From NCBI GenBank assembly GCA_002690915.1, contig NZGF01000050.1:1-64000 (forward strand): 64,000 nt of DNA, read 5' to 3'. Below are positions 23,795 to 34,478 of the stretch, one piece after another. The position numbers were made by a program, and so were the translations under genes. How positions within the stretch are numbered: position 1 is the stretch's first letter; every line of letters starts with the position of its first letter. The DNA comes from Crocinitomicaceae bacterium (GTDB lineage Bacteria > Bacteroidota > Bacteroidia > Flavobacteriales_D > Sanyastnellaceae). The notes under the pieces were generated by a model. That model was not told the origin of the DNA. It ran no database searches and saw only the letters and a list, made by a program, of their open reading frames with translations.

Positions 23795-24163
23795 ATGAGA
23801 ACGTTTGAATTTGAGGAAGTGCGAGACCGAAGTCTGTCGAAACCCAAAGTCACAGAGGAATTTCCCTTCGACGCAAATACGTGTGTGTGGAAGGTGGCAA
23901 ACAAGATATTCGCCTTAGCCGATATCGATGCCTTCGACGGCGTGACGCTCAAATGCGATCCGGAATACGCCGTAGAATTGAGGGAGCAGCACACGGGCAT
24001 CATTGGCGGATACCACGCTAACAAAAAACACTGGAACACCGTCCGGTCGGAAGCGGATGTTCCGCGCTCACTGGTCCTCGCCTTGATAGACCACAGCTAC
24101 GAGCGAGTTGTCGCAGGTTTTTCACAAAAACAACGCAAGGCGCTCGGATTGCAAGGGCATTGA
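23795..24163 (+). CDS. MmcQ/YjbR family DNA-binding protein
   Basis: KVTEEFPFDANTCVWKVANKIFALADID...NKKHWNTV...LVLALIDHSYERVVAGFSQKQRKAL. Confidence 0.85.
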   Translation: MRTFEFEEVRDRSLSKPKVTEEFPFDANTCVWKVANKIFALADIDAFDGVTLKCDPEYAVELREQHTGIIGGYHANKKHWNTVRSEADVPRSLVLALIDHSYERVVAGFSQKQRKALGLQGH

Positions 24164-24176
24164 TTATTCTTGTTCC

Positions 24177-25940
24177 ATGGAGATTGCAGCATTGGATTGG
24201 GCCATCATTGGCGCATACTTTTTGTTGGCCCTCGGCGTTGGCATCTGGGCATCGCGGGTCGTAGGGAATTCGGTAACCGGGTTTTTCCTTGCCGGCCGCA
24301 ACATGCCCTGGTGGCTGTTGGGCATAAGTATGGTAGCCACGACGTTTTCCACCGATACCCCCAACTTGGTCACGGGCCTCGTACGCGAGCAAGGAGTCAG
24401 TGGGAACTGGGGGTGGTGGGCCTTCTTGCTGACAGGCATGCTCACCGTCTTTGTTTACGCTCGGCTTTGGCGGCGATCGGGTGTGATGACGGACATCGAG
24501 TTTTATGAGTTGCGTTACGGCGGTAAGCCCGCAGCGGCATTGCGCGGATTTCGGGCGCTGTATTTGGGGCTGGTTTTTAACGTGCTCGTCATGGGCACCG
24601 TTTCGCTCGCTGCTATCAAGTTGGGCGGCATCTTGCTGGGGTGGCCTGGTTGGTTGACTTTGCTCGTTACGGGTGCCATCACATTGTTGTACAGTACGTT
24701 GGGCGGTTTGAGAGCGGTCATTTTGACCGACTTTGTGCAATTCATCTTGGCGATGATTGGCTCGATCTGGGCCTGCTGGTACATTTTGAATCTGGATGCG
24801 GTTGGTGGATTGGATGCGCTGTTGGCCCATGCGGACGTGGCGTCCAAAACGAGCATATTCCCTGCCATGGACGATCCGGCCCAGTGGGTTCCAATTCTAG
24901 TGGTTCCCCTCGCGGTGCAGTGGTGGGCCAGTTACTACCCAGGCGCCGAACCGGGCGGCGGCGGTTACATCGCACAGCGCATGTTCAGCGCCAAAGACGA
25001 AAGCCATGCGGTGGGGGCGACTTTGCTGTTCAATGTGGCACATTACGCGCTGCGTCCGTGGCCTTGGATTTTGATTGCGTTGGCGTCGATTGTGGTATTC
25101 CCCACACTGGCGGATTTACAGGCGGCGTTCCCGAACATCCCGGCGGACAAAATTGGCCACGACTTGGCCTATCCGGCCATGTTGTCATTGTTGCCAGAAG
25201 GGCTCTTGGGCTTGGTCGCGGCATCCTTGTTGGCCGCCTTCATGAGCACCATGTCCACCCAGCTCAACCTCGGCGCGAGCTACCTCGTCAACGATTTTTG
25301 GGTGCGATTCATCCGACCGGATGCGACCGATGCGGAGCAAGTGCGGGCAGGTCGATTGGCGACCGTTGTCTCGTTGATGCTCGGCAGCGGGCTCGGTTTG
25401 CTATTAACCGATGCCGGCCAAGCCTTTAACCTGTTGTTGCTCATCGGGGCTGGAACAGGCGGCCTGTTCATCTTGCGGTGGTTTTGGTGGCGCATCAATG
25501 CCTGGACCGAGTTGGTGGCAATGGCCGGATCGCTCCTCATTGCAGGCTATTTCACCTTTGTTCACGACAATACCGGCCTATTGGAATTGGCGGCGTACGA
25601 GAAGCTTATCTGGGGTTCGTTACTCACCACATTGGTCTGGGTGGTGGCGACTTATGTGACACCCCCAGAATCGGAAGAGACCCTGCGCGCTTTCGTGGAA
25701 AAAGTGAATCCCGGCGGTCCCGGATGGACGCGTTGGGCAACTGCGGAAACGGCTGTTCCTTGGCCGGTGCCTCGGGGTATTTTATCCATGGTATTGGGGT
25801 GTACGGGGGTCTATGCAGCGCTCATTGCAACGGGTTCTTGGTTGTACGGCGATGCCACGACGGCCATGATTTTGGCGTCGGTGACAGCGGGAAGTGCGTG
25901 GGCAGTATTCGTTTTGAACCGAACGCCGGCAAACGCATGA
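24177..25940 (+). CDS. Sodium:solute symporter (SSS family)
   Basis: MEIAALDWAIIGAYFLLALGVGIWASR...FFLAGRNMPWWLLGISMVATTFSTDTPNLVTG; multiple TM helices; MSTMSTQLNLGASYLVND. Confidence 0.9.
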   Translation: MEIAALDWAIIGAYFLLALGVGIWASRVVGNSVTGFFLAGRNMPWWLLGISMVATTFSTDTPNLVTGLVREQGVSGNWGWWAFLLTGMLTVFVYARLWRRSGVMTDIEFYELRYGGKPAAALRGFRALYLGLVFNVLVMGTVSLAAIKLGGILLGWPGWLTLLVTGAITLLYSTLGGLRAVILTDFVQFILAMIGSIWACWYILNLDAVGGLDALLAHADVASKTSIFPAMDDPAQWVPILVVPLAVQWWASYYPGAEPGGGGYIAQRMFSAKDESHAVGATLLFNVAHYALRPWPWILIALASIVVFPTLADLQAAFPNIPADKIGHDLAYPAMLSLLPEGLLGLVAASLLAAFMSTMSTQLNLGASYLVNDFWVRFIRPDATDAEQVRAGRLATVVSLMLGSGLGLLLTDAGQAFNLLLLIGAGTGGLFILRWFWWRINAWTELVAMAGSLLIAGYFTFVHDNTGLLELAAYEKLIWGSLLTTLVWVVATYVTPPESEETLRAFVEKVNPGGPGWTRWATAETAVPWPVPRGILSMVLGCTGVYAALIATGSWLYGDATTAMILASVTAGSAWAVFVLNRTPANA

Positions 25941-26983
25941 TTGTCAATGCGTCAGCACCGGGCAGAATTTGCCTGTTTGGCGAACATCAGGACTATTTTG
26001 GGTTGCCCGTGGCTGCGGCCGCCATTGACCTGCGCGGCCAATTGCGCAGCACCTCGCGGTCGGATCAGACCGTTGAATTGCACCTTTTGGATTTGGATGA
26101 GGTCCACACGTGGAACCTTAATGAACTGCCTCGGCCCGACCCGCGGGAGTACTGGTTGGCGGCCCTGCACGTGGCTCAGGAGGAGGGTTGGCTTCCGAAA
26201 AGCGGATGGCGTGCGGAAGTGACAAGTGCCATTCCGCAACAAGCCGGTGCGAGCAGTTCGAGTGCGCTCACAGCTGCATGGTGCGCATTGATTGCTACTC
26301 GGGCAGAAAAGACTTTCGATAACGAATGGGTGGCGCATGCAACTTGGCGTGTGGAAGTTGCCTTTTTTGATGAGCCCGGGGGCATGATGGACCAAGTGAT
26401 GTGTGCCATGGGCGGTGTTCGAACGGTCGATTTCCATCCCGAGTTTCATACCCGCCTGCTTCCTCGTCCTCCCGGGGACTGGTTGCTCATCGATTCCGAG
26501 CAGCCGAAGGACACGCTGGGAATTTTGGCTCGCGCCAAGCACCACCGGCTCGACCTTCTCGAAGCTTGGGGTGCTTCCCTGCACGAAGGGTTTTTTCCCG
26601 ACCGACCGTCGGGATGGGGCCCGCACGATCACCGACTCATGGACGCGACCGTAGGCATTCAATCCGTTTCTGACTTCGGCCGGTCCCTGCTTGAACAGCA
26701 AGGCGTTTCGTGTAAAGCCATTGGCCACCAGTTAACGGAGCACCATCGGTGGCTGTCCGAGGGCATCCAAGTTTCGACGAATCGCATCGATGCTTTGCTC
26801 AGGAAGGCGCTTGATCTTGGGGCATGCGGTGGAAAAATTAACGGGTCTGGAGGAGGTGGAACGGCTTTTGCGGTCTTCCCTGAAGGCAGACAACAAACAG
26901 CACTAAAGGAATTAAGAGCAGCAGGGGCACGGGTGATCCCCATTGCGCTGGGTGCCGAAGGTGTTTGCGTAGAGGTCATTTGA
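25937..26983 (+). CDS. GHMP-family sugar kinase (galactokinase/mevalonate kinase-like)
   Basis: SAPGRICLFGEHQDYFGLPVAAAAI (GHMP motif 1), IPQQAGASSSSALTAAWCAL (motif 2), GACGGKINGSGGGGTAFAV (motif 3). ATGA overlap with symporter stop. Confidence 0.9.
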   Translation: MIVNASAPGRICLFGEHQDYFGLPVAAAAIDLRGQLRSTSRSDQTVELHLLDLDEVHTWNLNELPRPDPREYWLAALHVAQEEGWLPKSGWRAEVTSAIPQQAGASSSSALTAAWCALIATRAEKTFDNEWVAHATWRVEVAFFDEPGGMMDQVMCAMGGVRTVDFHPEFHTRLLPRPPGDWLLIDSEQPKDTLGILARAKHHRLDLLEAWGASLHEGFFPDRPSGWGPHDHRLMDATVGIQSVSDFGRSLLEQQGVSCKAIGHQLTEHHRWLSEGIQVSTNRIDALLRKALDLGACGGKINGSGGGGTAFAVFPEGRQQTALKELRAAGARVIPIALGAEGVCVEVI

Positions 26984-27006: not shown

Positions 27007-28503
27007 ATGACGTGCAATCGGATTATTGTGTTGGCAGCCGGACGGGCCACACGTATGCGTACCAGTGCCGCATCGGCTGAGTCCACGCGCTTCGTCCAAG
27101 ATGCATTGGAACGGCCCAAGCCCATGATCCGGGTGGGACCCAATAATGAACCCATGCTGCAGCTCATCCTTGAGCAAGCCCTTCGAGCAGGGTTCACAGA
27201 AGCAACCGTGGTCATTGCACCCAACGACACCATCACGTCTTCATTCCTGCAGGAGTGGGGCTGTCAAGGCCGGGGGATGCGCATCAGAACGGCGGTGCAA
27301 TCTGAACCCAAGGGTACAGGCCATGCGGTCCAATGCGCGCTTGAGAGCGACCCGGTGCCGCCCGGAGCCATGTGGGTATTGGCGAACGGAGACAACTTGC
27401 CCACACGATCGGCATTAGCGCGTTTGCGGATAGAGGGCTCAGGTCCGGCTGTGTTGGCTTACGATCGGGATGCGTTGGGCTTAGACCCGAACAAAACAAT
27501 GGCTTTTGCAGTGCTGGAAGGCGATGGTTCCACGGTGCACCGCATCACTGAGAAGCCGGATGCTGCGATTGTAGATCGCTTGGCCGAGAGCGGTTCGGTT
27601 CGCGTTTCAATGAACTACTTCCGCCTTGAAGTCGATCGGCTAAAGGCACACTTGGCGGCCTTGGAGCCGCATCGAGAACGCGGCGAACTCGAGCTGCCCA
27701 CCGCATTGCAAGCGATGATGGATGCCGGTGCAGGACTGACACAGATCAACGTGGCAGAAGAAGTGTTGGATTTGACTCGCATTCAAGACGTTGCGTGGGT
27801 CCAAGCTGGATTGCACCTGCTTGAACCGTACCAGTTGGAGGTGTGTGCGAGTTCTCCGATGGATGTCCGAACGGCCGCAGCGGCCGGTGCTCAGCGTGTT
27901 GAATTGTGCGCGCATTGGGAGTGCGGCGGATTGACTCCCACGGAAGCGGACATTCGCATGGCGAGTGCGGTAGGTTTACCGGTGCACGCGCTCATCCGAA
28001 GCCGCGCCGGCCACTTTGTTTACAGCGCAGAGGAGAAAGAATTGATGACGGCCCAAATCGAGGCTTCATTGGCTGCCGGCGCCGTCCGGGTGGTGGTGGG
28101 CGCCTTGCAGGCCGATGGAACGTGGGATACGCCATTGTTGAGCCGCTGGGTGGAAGCATTTGGTGCCCACCGCATCGTAATCCACCGGGCATTTGATGCC
28201 TGTACGGATTGGGAGGGCGCAGCGACGTCGTTGAAGGCACTCGGTGTGCGCCGATTCTTGACCAGCGGCGGCGAACCCCTTGCTTGGAACGGGCGCGATC
28301 GCATTCGTCATTTGGCAGCGGAAGGTTTTGACGTGACGGTCGGGAGTGGCGTTGTGCCTGAGCAGCTGGCGGATTGGATGGATATTGGCATCACTCAATT
28401 TCATGCCTCATGCAGAGAAGTGGACGATCGTGCGACGGCGTTGTTTGACGGAAAGGCTAGTAAGGTCAGTCCGGCTTCGGTAAGGCGCTGGTTCAATCGG
28501 TGA
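27007..28503 (+). CDS. Sugar nucleotidyltransferase fused to CutC-family domain
   Basis: N-half NRIIVLAAGRATRM...ERPKPMIRV...VLANGDN (NTP transferase); C-half LEVCASSPMDVRTAAAAGAQRVELCAHWECGGLTPTEADIR...VHALIRSRAGHFVYSAEE...VGALQADGTWD...IHRAFDACTDW...RFLTSGG...VTVGSGV...FHASC (CutC signature). Alternative starts 26965/26989. Confidence 0.88.
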   Translation: MTCNRIIVLAAGRATRMRTSAASAESTRFVQDALERPKPMIRVGPNNEPMLQLILEQALRAGFTEATVVIAPNDTITSSFLQEWGCQGRGMRIRTAVQSEPKGTGHAVQCALESDPVPPGAMWVLANGDNLPTRSALARLRIEGSGPAVLAYDRDALGLDPNKTMAFAVLEGDGSTVHRITEKPDAAIVDRLAESGSVRVSMNYFRLEVDRLKAHLAALEPHRERGELELPTALQAMMDAGAGLTQINVAEEVLDLTRIQDVAWVQAGLHLLEPYQLEVCASSPMDVRTAAAAGAQRVELCAHWECGGLTPTEADIRMASAVGLPVHALIRSRAGHFVYSAEEKELMTAQIEASLAAGAVRVVVGALQADGTWDTPLLSRWVEAFGAHRIVIHRAFDACTDWEGAATSLKALGVRRFLTSGGEPLAWNGRDRIRHLAAEGFDVTVGSGVVPEQLADWMDIGITQFHASCREVDDRATALFDGKASKVSPASVRRWFNR

Positions 28504-28530
28504 TTGGTAGGCGGTATGCTATTTTGCACC

Positions 28531-30741
28531 ATGGAAAAACCCTTGCTGATATTTGCTCTTGCTCTTCTTCTAGGGGCATGCGCTCCACTTGCAGAGGCAC
28601 CCCCATTGGAACTCATCCCGCATCCGATAAGCTGGAATCCGGGCCAGAGCACTTGTTCCCTCTCCGGTACATGGAACTTGGAAGTGGCGGAAGAATGGAA
28701 GGATGAGCGGGGTTTTTGGTTGGATTGGCTGGTGGCTGATTCCGATGGGAATGAAGGGAAGGCCGTGGTGGTGATCATGGAGCGAGCACACGGCATGGAA
28801 CCCGAGGCGTATGCGCTTGCCATTCGCCCGGAGGGGATCCGCATCGAAGCCGGCTCGGAACACGGGGCGTTTCATGCTTTGACGACGTTGCGTTCCCTCG
28901 TCCTGACAAGTGGAGGTGTCTTGCCGTGCGGCGACCTGGTGGATGCGCCACGGTTCGCGCACCGGGGGTTGCTGCTGGATTGTTGCCGGCATTTTATGGA
29001 ACCGGATTTTGTCAAGCGCATGATTGATTTGCTGGCGTTGCACAAAATGAGCGTTTTGCATTGGCATCTCACGGAAGACCAGGGATGGCGTGTTGAAATT
29101 GATGCTTATCCCGATTTGACCCAAAAGGGCGCATGGCGGACCGAAGCGGATGGCAGCCAACACGGCGGTTTTTACACCAAGGAGGAAATCCGTGACATCG
29201 TCGCCTACGCAGCCCAGCGCCATATTGAAGTCATCCCCGAAATCGAGCTCCCGGGCCACAGCCGAGCGGCATTGGCTGCTTACCCTTGGCTCGGTTGCAC
29301 AGGTGAGGCCATGGAGGTGCCGAACGACTGGGGGGTTTTTAAGGACATTTACTGCGCAGGGCAGGATACGACCTTGGCGTTCTTGAAAACCGTGCTTGAT
29401 GAGGTGATGGAGCTTTTTCCCTCCGAATACATCCACATCGGAGGAGATGAGGCACCCAAGGTGCGCTGGGAGCAATGCCCTAGATGCCAGAAGCGCATTG
29501 CGGATGAAGGCCTGCACGACACGCACGAATTGCAGTCGTGGTTTATTGGTGAAATCGGCCGTTACCTCGAAGCGCATGGCCGAAAGATGATCGGTTGGGA
29601 TGAAATCCTGGAAGGTGGGTTGCCCGCGGATGCCACGGTGCAGTCGTGGCGCGGTATGGACGGCGGCCGCGATGCGGTGGCAATGGGCCACGACGCCATC
29701 ATGTCGCCAACGTCGCACTGTTATTTTGACTACCCAGTGGAGTCCACAGACCTGGAGAAAGTCTATGGGTTTGAACCCGAACCGGAGGGCCTCAACGGCA
29801 GCGGCCAAATCCTTGGAGGGGAGTGCAACATGTGGAGCGAACGGGCCCCACAGCACCTAGTGGAATCTAAAGTATTTCCGCGCCTCGTGGCCATGGCAGA
29901 GGTACTTTGGAGTCCGCCATCAACTAAGAGTTGGCGGGGCTTCCAAGAGCGTATGGAATCTCATTATGGCCGATTGGATGCTTGGGAGGTTGCCTATGGA
30001 TGGGAGACGGTTCCAATGGCGTTGGAATGGAAAAAGGGTCACACTCCAAACAGCCTTCAGGTCCAAATCGTTCCCGCCATGTTCGGCGTGGATGGAATCG
30101 GGGATTTTGTGTTGCGCAGGGGGAGCACAGCAGCAGCGGCCCTGGGTATGGAGGAATTTCATTCCGTTGAAGGAGAGGGGGAGTTGCGGGTCACATTGTC
30201 GCGCAAAGGCGCATCGATGGGAGATCTCTTGGTGTTTCCACTGGCCGGTCACGCCGGCGCATTTCGAGCGGTCGAATTGGACCATGAAATCAATGCTTAC
30301 TACCCCGGGCGAGGGTCACAGGGCCTAGCGGACGGGCGGCTGGGTTCGGATGATTTTCGCGATGGTTCTTGGCAGGCCGCCAATGGCCAGCATATGGGTG
30401 TCACCGTGGAGTTGGATGCCCCAACCCAAATTGATTCATTGAGTATGCAAGTGTACCGGTACCAGGACGCGTGGATTTTCCTGCCGGATTCGGTGCGGTT
30501 CCAGTGGTCCGTAGATGGTGAACATTGGGACGGTGAGTGGCGGGAGCAACCGTTTGGGTCGCCCACCTTTGACCCCAGCGAAGCCCAGGATGTAAATCGC
30601 TTGGTTATCCCTGTTGGTGAAACGGCACGTTGGGTGCGATTCGAAGCCCGCAACCCCGGTCCTTGCCCCGATTGGCATGACGGCGCGAGTTCAGCTACGT
30701 GGCTGTTTCTGGATGAATTGGTGGTGCACAGCCAACCTTAA
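28531..30741 (+). CDS. Glycoside hydrolase family 20 beta-N-acetylhexosaminidase lipoprotein
   Basis: MEKPLLIFALALLLGACAP lipobox; RFAHRGLLLDCCRHFMEPDFVKRMIDLLALHKMSVLHWHLTEDQGWRVEI; catalytic YIHIGGDEAPKVRW; C-terminal F5/8C-like segment. Confidence 0.93.
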   Translation: MEKPLLIFALALLLGACAPLAEAPPLELIPHPISWNPGQSTCSLSGTWNLEVAEEWKDERGFWLDWLVADSDGNEGKAVVVIMERAHGMEPEAYALAIRPEGIRIEAGSEHGAFHALTTLRSLVLTSGGVLPCGDLVDAPRFAHRGLLLDCCRHFMEPDFVKRMIDLLALHKMSVLHWHLTEDQGWRVEIDAYPDLTQKGAWRTEADGSQHGGFYTKEEIRDIVAYAAQRHIEVIPEIELPGHSRAALAAYPWLGCTGEAMEVPNDWGVFKDIYCAGQDTTLAFLKTVLDEVMELFPSEYIHIGGDEAPKVRWEQCPRCQKRIADEGLHDTHELQSWFIGEIGRYLEAHGRKMIGWDEILEGGLPADATVQSWRGMDGGRDAVAMGHDAIMSPTSHCYFDYPVESTDLEKVYGFEPEPEGLNGSGQILGGECNMWSERAPQHLVESKVFPRLVAMAEVLWSPPSTKSWRGFQERMESHYGRLDAWEVAYGWETVPMALEWKKGHTPNSLQVQIVPAMFGVDGIGDFVLRRGSTAAAALGMEEFHSVEGEGELRVTLSRKGASMGDLLVFPLAGHAGAFRAVELDHEINAYYPGRGSQGLADGRLGSDDFRDGSWQAANGQHMGVTVELDAPTQIDSLSMQVYRYQDAWIFLPDSVRFQWSVDGEHWDGEWREQPFGSPTFDPSEAQDVNRLVIPVGETARWVRFEARNPGPCPDWHDGASSATWLFLDELVVHSQP

Positions 30742-33700
30742 CACGGCTGCCCCCATACGGTCAACATACCGAGCAAATCGCCAGTGTTGATATCCCCGCT
30801 GCCGTCTAAATCCAACACGGGGGAGGCTCCGTTGCCACCCACGTCTACAGCTTCCCCAAAGTGTACGAGCAACAGAAGCAAATCCGGCAAGTTGCGTAGG
30901 CCGTCGGAGTTGAAGTCACCGGGGCACAAACAGGGGTAGCCACCGGCTTCAAAACAGTCGGTGCCGAGCAAAGGGAAAGCATACTGCTCTGCCAACAAGA
31001 AAGCGTCCATGCCCAGCACCTCTCCCATGGCTCGACCGGGGAAATCATCGATGGGCGGGTGAATGCCACCCCATATGCGCGACAGCGCGCTTTGATCGGC
31101 CGCATCGCGGTAGGTGGCCCATTGCAATTCAAAATCCATAGACGGCCCGTCCTCAAAGACGAGGAATTCGTGGGCTTCCACCGGAAACGCTCCCAGGCCT
31201 CCGGGGAAGTAGGCATCGCCCGTCAAGGCGGTCAGCACCTCAGCTGCCGCTCGACTGAATGTCGAGTGTCCGCTCACGTAGCCGGCGAAAGGTGGCGTGA
31301 CAAAGGTCGGACGCTGGTACGGCCACCACTCGCGGGCACGTATCCAATCCACGCCTGCCCACTGCAGAGCCGGAACCCCAATGTAATCCGGTCCTTTCCA
31401 GCACCGGATTTTCATCTCGTACAGGTGCTCGTTGTTGGGACCGCGGAGTTCTATGGGATCTTCTGGACTGATTTGTTCAATGTGTCCCGGGATGATGGGC
31501 AAGCCCGCTCCGTGGTAGTTTGGAAGCTCCGGGTCCGTGCATTGCCCACGGTCGGCCATCCAGCGCAACGCTGAAACCGGTCGGACGTAGTCGTGCCAGC
31601 CTTTGCAACTCCAAGCGGCAATCGCCGCATCGTGCATGGCGCCGCCCATGGAGAAGTAGGCGATGACGTCCCAGTCTAGGGCATTGAGCGGCTCGCCTAG
31701 GCCGCGCCATTTGCGTTGCAATTCGGGTTGGTCGTTGACGTAGTTCAGGAGGGTAAACCAGTGTCCGGGCGGGGTTTCCGAATCCGGTCCGTCAGCCCAG
31801 TATTCTGCCAGCACCCGGGTGAAGTCTCCACGCAAGACCGGCTGTGCAGCGTAAGGTTCGCCTGATACAGGATTGAACGGGTGCCCGGGTTCCACACCTG
31901 CAGCAACAGGAACGCCATCGACAGCATAATAATCGCGAGCTTCTTCCACACTGCTGGGCAAGAATCCATTCCAGCTGAATGCGCCGGGTCCGATGTCCCA
32001 CACCACGGAATCGGCGGGATCGAGGTGAGAGGCCCACAGGGCAACGAGGGTATGCCCCCATTTGTAATCGCTTTCCAGTCCTGTTTCTTCGTTCGGATTG
32101 ATTTGCGCGGGAGGCCCGGGATCGTGGTACACGGTGTAGGTACTCCCGAGCCGTTCAAATTGAGCCGTATCTGCCGCTGTCATTGCAAAAGGCTGGACGT
32201 CCCCCCATTCCGGGCTCAGGAAGTCTGGTGAGATGTTCGAGCCTTCGTTCCCCGATTGGTCGATGAATTCGGCCAATTGCAGGGGTTGCCAGCGGTTCGG
32301 GAAAAACATGTTGGGGTTGCCTGGTTCGTCCATCACCAGGTTCCAATTCATGGGATTGTAGTAGGTATTTTGGTAGTCGATGACTTCAAACGATCCGTCT
32401 TGGAGTCCGTATGCGATGTAATTTTCGGCGAGGTAATTGCCCAGTGAAGCCGCTCGCTCCATCCACGTTCCATTCGTGTAGTCGGTCTCGTGCCATGCCG
32501 TGTCGTAGCCGAGTGCTTCCATTTGGCTGTCGATGTGTGTGGTGATTCGCTCAGCACGTGGGGCGTTTACAAAGCGGTGCTGGAGCAGCCGGTACACCCC
32601 GTAGCTGATGCTCAATCGGCGTGCCGCTTGCCGATTTTCCGCTTCGATGTCGGGCGAACCATCAAAGGGGCACGTGTAATTTCCTTGTTGGTTGCCCAAG
32701 AGCCATGGCTGAGCGCCCACAATGGTATCCGCACCCCATGCCGCCCACGCGTCGTACATCAGGGCTGAGGTGTGCCAAAGGTTACGCGCATGCACTGTGG
32801 GCCGGGCCCAGTCGTGCCGAATACTGAGCAGCGTAGCTTCGTTCCAGATCCGGGCGACGCTGTGGGTCGCAAGGGTCGGGAAATCCGGAAGGGGACTGCC
32901 TGAACAATCCAATCCAGCCGAGGGGAAGAAGCACGTTCCATCGTCCACCGTCGCAGCCATTTCGTAATTGCACGCATCCGCATTGGTGCAGCCGTTGGTC
33001 AACCAAGGTTCAGCACCCGGCTCAAGTACAGTGTGGATGCTGTCGGCGGCAAACGGTCCGTGCGTGGAGAAGCCGCCGGTGGGCCAGCGAACCACGATAG
33101 AGTCGACGCTGGTCGCAGCGCCCAAACCCATGTGCACATCAAATGAGCTCGAACCGCTGTAGCCCTGCCCGCAATGGATTTCATCGTAGCGGGTTTGGCC
33201 ATCGAAGTGGGCTTCAATGCGCGCTCCGATGGCCGACCGATTGGATGAAGTTCCCTCGAGTCGGAAGCCAATGAAGTGCCCGTTGGTGTTGAGGTTTTCC
33301 AAGATTTGAAATCCCGGCTGGGTGGGAGATCCGGTGGTGGCTATGGCGAGGTCCCAGTCCCCATCTCCATCTAAATCACCCGCTGCCAGTCCGTAATCGC
33401 TGTGGTTGTGTTCCAGCACCGCATCCCCCTCGCTGACCCAGGCGAACGTGCTATCGCCCAGGCCGCGGTACAGACGATTGGACGTTGGGGCAAATGCGTA
33501 GTCGTTCACGATGTACAGGTCGGTTTCGGCATCGTGGTCGTAGTCGAAAAAGATGCATCCCCACGTCATACCGGAATCATCCACGCCTGCATCCTCTGCG
33601 ATGGCGGTGAACGTGCCGTCGCCGTTATTCAAGAACAGCTCGCTCGGGTATAGATCGGTAATGTAGAGGTCCATCCAACCGTCGTGGTTGATGTCCGCTG

Positions 33701-34478
33701 CGTCGACCCCCATGCAGTTGCCCTGGTAATCAAGTCCAACACCTGCTGCATCTTGAGTGAAACTGCCTTGGCCGTCATTCCTGAAAAAGTTGTTGACTTG
33801 GTTGCCATCGTGTGTAGCATACAAATCCACATCTCCATCGTTGTCAGCATCAAAAAATAACGCCCCCATGCCGATTCCGGTATCCACCGTTCCAGAGGGA
33901 AAGGTGACGTTTTGGAAGCCGGTTCCTTCCAGGTTCCGCAGCATGGCGTTGTGGCTATTTATGTTGACTACGTACAAATCCAACCAGCCGTCTCCATCGA
34001 TGTCTGCCGCGTGCAGGCTCCGGCACGGCCCAGCATTCCCAGCATTCCACGTGTCTGTGGCATCGGTGAAGGTGCCGTCCCCGTTGTTTAGAAAGAGCCG
34101 ATTCGGATCTAGGTAATTACCGGTGATCAAATCCAACCATCCGTCATTATTGAAGTCCGCCCATATGACGGCATTGGTCGTTCCCTCATCCGCTACCCCT
34201 GCTGGAATTGCAACTTCTTCGAATTGCATGCCACCGAGGTTCCGGAATAAGCGGTTGGGGGCAAACTTGGTGCCCACGTAGATGTCCTCACGTCCGTCGC
34301 GATCGAAATCTCCGATGGCGACAGCATGGTGCAAGCCATCCACTGCAACCCCCGCTGCTTCAGAAATGTCTTCGAATAGGTCTTGAGCACAGGCCAGGTG
34401 TCCCAGATGCCCCAAAAATAACAGGCACATCATTCTATTGAAAGCAGTCGACAACCGGTGGCGTGGGGTAGGATTCAT
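30738..34478 (-). CDS. FG-GAP/ASPIC-UnbV repeat + vanadium-dependent haloperoxidase (PAP2-like) multidomain protein with dockerin-like C-terminus
   Basis: FG-GAP repeats (DFDRDGREDIYVGTKFAPNRLFRNLG, DIDGDGWLDLYVVNINSHNAMLRN); UnbV-like IGARIEAHFDGQTRYDEIHCGQGYSGSSSFDVHMGLG; GCTNADACNYEMAATVDDGTC; PAP2/VHPO residues HDYVRPVSALR, GYVSGHSTFSRAAAEVL, SRIWGGIHPPIDD; C-term DFNSDGLRNLPDLLLLLVHFG...DLDGSGDINTGDLLGMLTVWG. Confidence 0.87.
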   Translation of the reverse strand: MNPTPRHRLSTAFNRMMCLLFLGHLGHLACAQDLFEDISEAAGVAVDGLHHAVAIGDFDRDGREDIYVGTKFAPNRLFRNLGGMQFEEVAIPAGVADEGTTNAVIWADFNNDGWLDLITGNYLDPNRLFLNNGDGTFTDATDTWNAGNAGPCRSLHAADIDGDGWLDLYVVNINSHNAMLRNLEGTGFQNVTFPSGTVDTGIGMGALFFDADNDGDVDLYATHDGNQVNNFFRNDGQGSFTQDAAGVGLDYQGNCMGVDAADINHDGWMDLYITDLYPSELFLNNGDGTFTAIAEDAGVDDSGMTWGCIFFDYDHDAETDLYIVNDYAFAPTSNRLYRGLGDSTFAWVSEGDAVLEHNHSDYGLAAGDLDGDGDWDLAIATTGSPTQPGFQILENLNTNGHFIGFRLEGTSSNRSAIGARIEAHFDGQTRYDEIHCGQGYSGSSSFDVHMGLGAATSVDSIVVRWPTGGFSTHGPFAADSIHTVLEPGAEPWLTNGCTNADACNYEMAATVDDGTCFFPSAGLDCSGSPLPDFPTLATHSVARIWNEATLLSIRHDWARPTVHARNLWHTSALMYDAWAAWGADTIVGAQPWLLGNQQGNYTCPFDGSPDIEAENRQAARRLSISYGVYRLLQHRFVNAPRAERITTHIDSQMEALGYDTAWHETDYTNGTWMERAASLGNYLAENYIAYGLQDGSFEVIDYQNTYYNPMNWNLVMDEPGNPNMFFPNRWQPLQLAEFIDQSGNEGSNISPDFLSPEWGDVQPFAMTAADTAQFERLGSTYTVYHDPGPPAQINPNEETGLESDYKWGHTLVALWASHLDPADSVVWDIGPGAFSWNGFLPSSVEEARDYYAVDGVPVAAGVEPGHPFNPVSGEPYAAQPVLRGDFTRVLAEYWADGPDSETPPGHWFTLLNYVNDQPELQRKWRGLGEPLNALDWDVIAYFSMGGAMHDAAIAAWSCKGWHDYVRPVSALRWMADRGQCTDPELPNYHGAGLPIIPGHIEQISPEDPIELRGPNNEHLYEMKIRCWKGPDYIGVPALQWAGVDWIRAREWWPYQRPTFVTPPFAGYVSGHSTFSRAAAEVLTALTGDAYFPGGLGAFPVEAHEFLVFEDGPSMDFELQWATYRDAADQSALSRIWGGIHPPIDDFPGRAMGEVLGMDAFLLAEQYAFPLLGTDCFEAGGYPCLCPGDFNSDGLRNLPDLLLLLVHFGEAVDVGGNGASPVLDLDGSGDINTGDLLGMLTVWGQPC

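Follow-up and report, generated by a model that had tools for sequence, protein, structure and literature searches.

We identified, in the 64,000-nucleotide stretch of DNA analysed here (the window), an operon of four genes on the same strand that encode, in order, an SSS symporter, a sugar 1-kinase (KIN), a fusion of a sugar nucleotidylyltransferase (NT) with a CutC domain (NT::CutC), and a GH20 hexosaminidase (Table 1). KIN and the symporter gene share 4 bases at the symporter stop. The gene order is kept in relatives, in which the block is flanked by TonB/LTD genes on one side and FG-GAP/RadC/WecB genes on the other, and the sugar kinase, symporter and GH20 named as operon partners in a preliminary description of this DNA were thus all recovered as a conserved set. 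The window also encodes, at 30738-34478 on the minus strand, a 1246-aa protein with FG-GAP repeats and a UnbV_ASPIC domain, whose C-terminal part is a helical domain resembling that of vanadium haloperoxidases (VCPO_2nd, 2.8e-7); among the relatives, L033 and L037 match it over the FG-GAP half only.

Table 1. Features of the NT::CutC operon and their positions in the window.
Feature	Position	Strand	Details
SSS-family sodium:solute symporter	24171..25940	+	PF00474, 4.8e-34; ORF can open at 24108; syntenic in relatives
GHMP sugar 1-kinase (KIN), galactokinase-like	25937..26983	+	motifs GEHQDY, PQQAGASSSS, GGMMDQ, GSGGG; PF00288, PF08544, PF10509
NT half of fusion, residues 1-272	27007..27822	+	motifs kept: LAAGR, RPKPM, GTGH, NGDN, EKP, DLT
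CutC half of fusion, residues 273-498	27823..28503	+	conserved E278, E299, C301, R331, R333, E343, H393, R394, D397, S420, H466
GH20 beta-N-acetylhexosaminidase	28516..30741	+	PF00728, 1.4e-111; ORF opens 28504; likely start 28516 or 28531

The neighbours of the fusion have solved relatives that bear on their roles. The symporter is nearest to the sodium/sugar cotransporters 2xq2, SGLT1 and SGLT2 and is presumed to import the released sugar, while the best solved relatives of KIN are galactokinases and mevalonate kinases. The GH20 protein is nearest to the beta-hexosaminidase 6q63 (3e-136), and a lipoprotein-type signal (LLLGAC) read at its N-terminus suggests that it is exported, as we presume.

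The fusion is a single ORF (27007-28503, plus strand) that translates into 498 aa and a stop with zero internal stops; the frame can also open at 26965, and 27007 is the start kept among relatives. Its N-terminal domain (about residues 6-268) is a sugar-1-phosphate nucleotidylyltransferase that exceeds both Pfam cut-offs, with 33.2 bits against 21.2 for NTP_transferase (PF00483) and 33.8 against 27 for NTP_transf_3 (PF12804), at E about 5e-8 each. The glycine-rich nucleotide loop with its conserved Arg, the downstream Lys and the catalytic Asp are all present, and in an alignment of 17 fusions G12, R16, K38, G128-D129, E182-K183-P184 and D255 are invariant; the motifs VLAAGRATRM, ERPKPM and VLANGDN, which had been placed correctly from the outset, have their key residues in these invariant columns. 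Pfam assigns residues 276-469 to CutC (PF03932; E=9.8e-42, 143.2 bits against a cut-off of 23.3), covering profile positions 2-200 of 202. An AlphaFold2 model built with the 17 fusions as input has a mean pLDDT of 90.5 and a pTM of 0.91, and in Foldseek searches its N-terminal half matches UDP-glucose pyrophosphorylase, GlmU and RmlA. The C-terminal half aligns with solved CutC structures of Shigella, human and Bacillus, with TM-scores of 0.8-0.87 by target for 1x8c, 1twd and 3iwp, and each of its 19 top matches in the PDB is a CutC (TM 0.76-0.90 by query). Translation, Pfam, AlphaFold2 and Foldseek therefore agree with the original reading of one uninterrupted frame that joins an NTP-transferase half to a full CutC half. 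The fusion is real, its two halves are complete, and both look functional. For the substrate class of NT, the nearest models were Arch_glmU, rmlA_long, AglF and GlmU, all far below their cut-offs, and such family-level matches do not tell GlcNAc-1-phosphate from other sugar-1-phosphates.

We found the full-length fusion in 19 of the 22 genomes of the genus, the window's own included, and in two genomes of a second genus, so the search for the same architecture in other taxa extended it to two genera. The 20 other full-length proteins are 49-85% identical to that of the window, and since the fusion is full length in two genera, a frameshift or an assembly join, the artefacts against which it was to be checked, is ruled out as its origin. 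Of the three remaining genomes, G004 and G021 carry partial matches only. In the third (G007, 95% complete) there was no fusion match, reflecting either loss or an assembly gap. All fusions form one clade of the CutC tree (support 100/97).

In addition, the same three proteins, KIN, NT and CutC, are joined in two different ways. At the same locus of Crocinitomicaceae EAC32, KIN and NT form one chain (KIN::NT, 637 aa) that is followed by a separate CutC and GH20; G042 has the same set with a KIN::NT of 638 aa, and in G034 KIN::NT and CutC-GH20 are found on separate contigs. The CutCs of these KIN::NT operons, together with that of G023, form a separate clade (98/90) near the fusion clade, and both lie inside a supported group (96/94) that also contains L051. 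A distant family, represented by G172 and L100, has KIN and NT as unfused genes side by side; a LacI regulator lies upstream, and the pair is followed by a NagP-like transporter (464 bits, under the cut-off of 625) and a NagB homologue with a PIG-L domain (NF002557, 1072 bits). These two joinings and the NagP/NagB/LacI neighbourhood lead us to read KIN and NT as an N-acetylhexosamine pair, and KIN, NT and CutC probably belong to a single N-acetylhexosamine route, the sugar being assigned from the neighbouring genes. In G033 (L038 1-4964, minus strand), a leucine-rich-repeat gene and an HTH/Gp49-like (DUF891) pair, which looks like a toxin-antitoxin module, separate KIN from an NT that runs off the contig end. 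Among the planctomycete NT matches (L074-L076), a CutC beside NT was looked for and none was found; in L074 a lipid A acyltransferase-like region precedes NT.

The association of CutC with glycan-degrading genes extends across the Bacteroidia. In 149 genomes of the class, we found CutC over its cut-off in 55 and GH20 in 67; GH20 occurred in 55 of the 55 CutC genomes and was missing from 82 of the 94 genomes without CutC (table 55/0/12/82; Fisher p=2e-29, a value inflated by relatedness). Ten families vary in CutC, and in nine of them GH20 varies too and allows a contrast; all nine are concordant (sign test 0.004). The GH29 fucosidase served as a lifestyle control: CutC was present in 22 of 24 GH29 genomes (p=2e-9), and phi was 0.50 for CutC-GH29 against 0.85 for CutC-GH20. 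A glycan-eating lifestyle thus explains part of the co-occurrence of CutC and GH20. GH3, tried as a further control, is present in 145 of 149 genomes and gave no information, and E. coli, from the control set, has CutC and no GH20.

Gene neighbourhoods agree with this picture. Of 53 CutC loci, 36 (in 18 families) have a glycosylasparaginase, GH2 or GH20 gene within four genes of CutC, which gives the neighbourhood statistic proposed for standalone CutC near GH20 and glycosylasparaginase genes; the per-gene counts are 21 for glycosylasparaginase (AGA), 19 for GH20, and 26 for GH2, tallied by BLAST and so not necessarily all beta-mannosidase. One AGA neighbour matches the glycosylasparaginase 3ljq (7e-150) and one GH2 neighbour the beta-mannosidase 2je8 (3e-196), and together the neighbours of CutC point to degradation of the N-glycan core. 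CutC homologues in relatives that are consistently separate from and unlinked to sugar genes had been named as the pattern contrary to a sugar role; this pattern did not hold in full, as the other 17 of the 53 loci have none of the three genes nearby, against the 36 that are linked. Standalone CutCs in the window's own taxonomic family likewise lie away from GH20, AGA and GH2 genes. Neither AGA nor GH2 adjoins the window operon. An Asparaginase_2 gene of the AGA type (glycosylasparaginase-like) is present in the window's own genome, but on a different contig (G000:C74:1500-2285), unlinked to the CutC operon. Among open-licence papers we found none that links CutC with glycosylasparaginase, hexosaminidase, mannosidase, GlcNAc or N-glycans.

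It could be argued that the fusion is a neutral joining of genes within an operon and that the CutC-GH20 link reflects nothing beyond a shared glycan-eating lifestyle, given that operon neighbours can fuse without a common pathway and that CutC genomes show an enrichment of GH29 as well. However, two different joinings have arisen at the same locus and the fusion has been retained across two genera, CutC is immediately adjacent to AGA and to GH2 in many families, and its coupling to GH20 is much tighter than to GH29; we therefore regard this explanation as unlikely.

The CutC pocket is highly conserved. Across 73 aligned CutCs, E278, E299, R331, H393, R394, D397 and H466 are conserved at 96-100%, and the fusion keeps these family-wide pocket residues along with S420; within the alignment of 17 fusions the CutC pocket residues do not vary. 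The nearest non-CutC folds are phosphate-binding barrels, namely MJ1099 (with PRPP), KDPG aldolases, PdxS, thiamin phosphate synthase and HisA, so a phosphorylated substrate for CutC is mildly favoured. We also considered an aldolase mechanism through a Schiff base, as suggested by the folds of KDPG aldolase, PdxS and MJ1099, but no CutC column reaches 60% Lys, which argues against such chemistry. The CutC half might instead lack catalysis or be regulatory, sensing a sugar and controlling NT; fused regulatory domains are common, and the two domains adopt a well-defined arrangement in the model. Yet its pocket residues are the same as those of standalone CutCs, and in most genomes, as at the sister loci, CutC has a gene of its own and therefore works without an attached NT domain, so that such an idle or regulatory role seems very improbable.

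CutC has usually been considered in relation to copper. Sensitivity to copper rises when human or worm CutC is knocked down, and the human protein has a weak affinity for Cu(I), with a Kd in the micromolar range (PMC11083455). The same review concludes against importer, exporter, classic chaperone and buffer functions for the human and worm proteins, yet places them in copper homeostasis (PMC11083455). The cutC region of E. coli also gives rise to MicL, a small RNA that depends on sigma-E, and deletion of cutC removes the MicL promoter as well (PMC8216713), which weakens the copper reading. The CutC half of the fusion could nevertheless be a copper-handling domain that was joined to a sugar enzyme by chance or for protection from copper, and it does have five cysteines, one of which (C301) is conserved at 96% in the 73 CutCs. 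The other four cysteine columns, however, are conserved at 21-60% against 96-100% for the pocket residues, no copper gene was recognised within the operon, and copper handling does not predict co-occurrence with GH20. We consider such a copper domain highly unlikely. More generally, the copper role of CutC is weakly founded and is made less likely here, not disproved. The preliminary description had placed CutC in sugar or NDP-sugar metabolism rather than in copper handling; the first part is well supported by context (the operon, the two joinings, the GlcNAc-type neighbourhood and the Bacteroidia association) and can be sharpened to N-acetylhexosamine metabolism, while the second holds only to the extent that copper has become less likely. 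We found no established reaction for the CutC family in the open-licence literature.

We also looked for the classical NagA and NagB. NagB had no match in the 22 genomes of the genus, 11 of them good, and a weak 31-bit fragment inside a 1045-aa frame of the window's own genome was not counted as NagA. In the class sample, NagB was over the cut-off in 21 genomes and NagA in 11, and 41 of the 55 CutC genomes have neither. Among genomes with GH20, CutC is present in 41 of the 45 that lack NagA/NagB and in 14 of the 22 that carry NagA/NagB (p=0.014, relatedness ignored), and its higher frequency in the former is suggestive only. All 21 NagB genomes of the class sample also have GH20, and NagA or NagB is present in 8 of the 12 genomes that have GH20 but lack CutC, so that CutC and NagA/NagB look like alternatives. 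A GlmU search of the genus at 1e-30 gave no match, but gave none in Bacteroides ihuae either. It is possible, though doubtful, that CutC is an unrecognised, widely conserved enzyme of GlcNAc or N-glycan-core catabolism for cells without classical NagA/NagB, with a secondary role in copper.

On balance, we think it reasonably probable that the fusion is a two-domain cytoplasmic enzyme of an N-acetylhexosamine (HexNAc) salvage operon, with CutC providing an enzymatic step on a route that runs through GH20, SSS, KIN and NT. We infer the sugar, the direction and the compartments of this pathway, with GlcNAc as the most likely sugar. Outside the inner membrane, the GH20 lipoprotein would cut beta-linked HexNAc off glycans; the sodium symporter would bring it into the cell, and the galactokinase-like GHMP kinase would phosphorylate C1 to give HexNAc-1-phosphate. 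From this the NT half may make an NDP-sugar to supply the synthesis of wall or glycans, with UDP-HexNAc as the probable product. The CutC half would be a TIM-barrel enzyme of the same route that acts in the cytoplasm on free HexNAc or its phosphate and yields the form used by the kinase and NT; it might isomerise or epimerise its substrate, convert one anomer to the other, or hydrolyse an unusual form, for example a glycosylamine.

One special case of this reading can be weighed separately. GH20 enzymes are retaining and release the beta anomer, whereas galactokinase-type kinases take alpha sugars, and the CutC half might be a mutarotase-like converter that gives KIN the alpha anomer after GH20 or glycosylasparaginase has released beta-GlcNAc. 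KIN keeps galactokinase-type motifs, and CutC adjoins enzymes that release beta-GlcNAc or its glycosylamine. However, free sugars also mutarotate without an enzyme, the phosphate-binding folds nearest to CutC favour a phosphorylated substrate, and since we know of no TIM-barrel mutarotase such an activity would lack a known precedent. We consider this special case unlikely.

These findings matter beyond the locus, as CutC spans bacteria, worms and humans, its copper label is weakly founded, and it was retained in the minimal cell Syn3.0 (PMC4993169). The fusion, the alternative fusion and the tight genome association all point to N-acetylhexosamines and offer a testable function for an orphan family that a short substrate screen could address. 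If this function is true, the widely copied annotation of CutC is wrong and CutC has gone unnoticed as a part of the N-glycan catabolism of Bacteroidia.

Several known systems resemble parts of this operon. In the AmgK/MurU salvage of MurNAc and GlcNAc in Pseudomonas and Tannerella, a recovered wall sugar is phosphorylated by an anomeric kinase and then made into an NDP-sugar by a nucleotidylyltransferase (PMC7670621). The proposed route would work alike, and its sugar kinase and NT are adjacent and fused in the window's relatives. AmgK is an aminoglycoside-phosphotransferase-type kinase, whereas the window kinase is GHMP and galactokinase-like and the pair is therefore not AmgK/MurU; moreover, the window set has GH20 as its hydrolase and includes CutC. 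The bifunctional fucokinase/fucose-1-phosphate guanylyltransferase FKP combines a GHMP kinase and an NT in one chain, as does the KIN::NT of relatives, but FKP has its NT part first and its kinase last, the reverse of KIN::NT, and CutC is an addition. The corresponding model (NF009948) is absent for KIN and NT-CutC of the window, and KIN of G172 scores 21.9 bits against 721. With the CutC family (PF03932; 1twd, 1x7i, 3iwp, 4r9x, 2bdq), the CutC half shares the fold and the conserved pocket (TM-score about 0.76-0.90) and is a true member by both sequence and fold, differing by its fusion to NT and by its own clade. Finally, CutC is a frequent member of the N-glycan-core operons of the sampled Bacteroidia, which carry GH20, glycosylasparaginase and GH2 beta-mannosidase; the window operon, by contrast, stands without an adjoining AGA or GH2 and adds KIN and NT.
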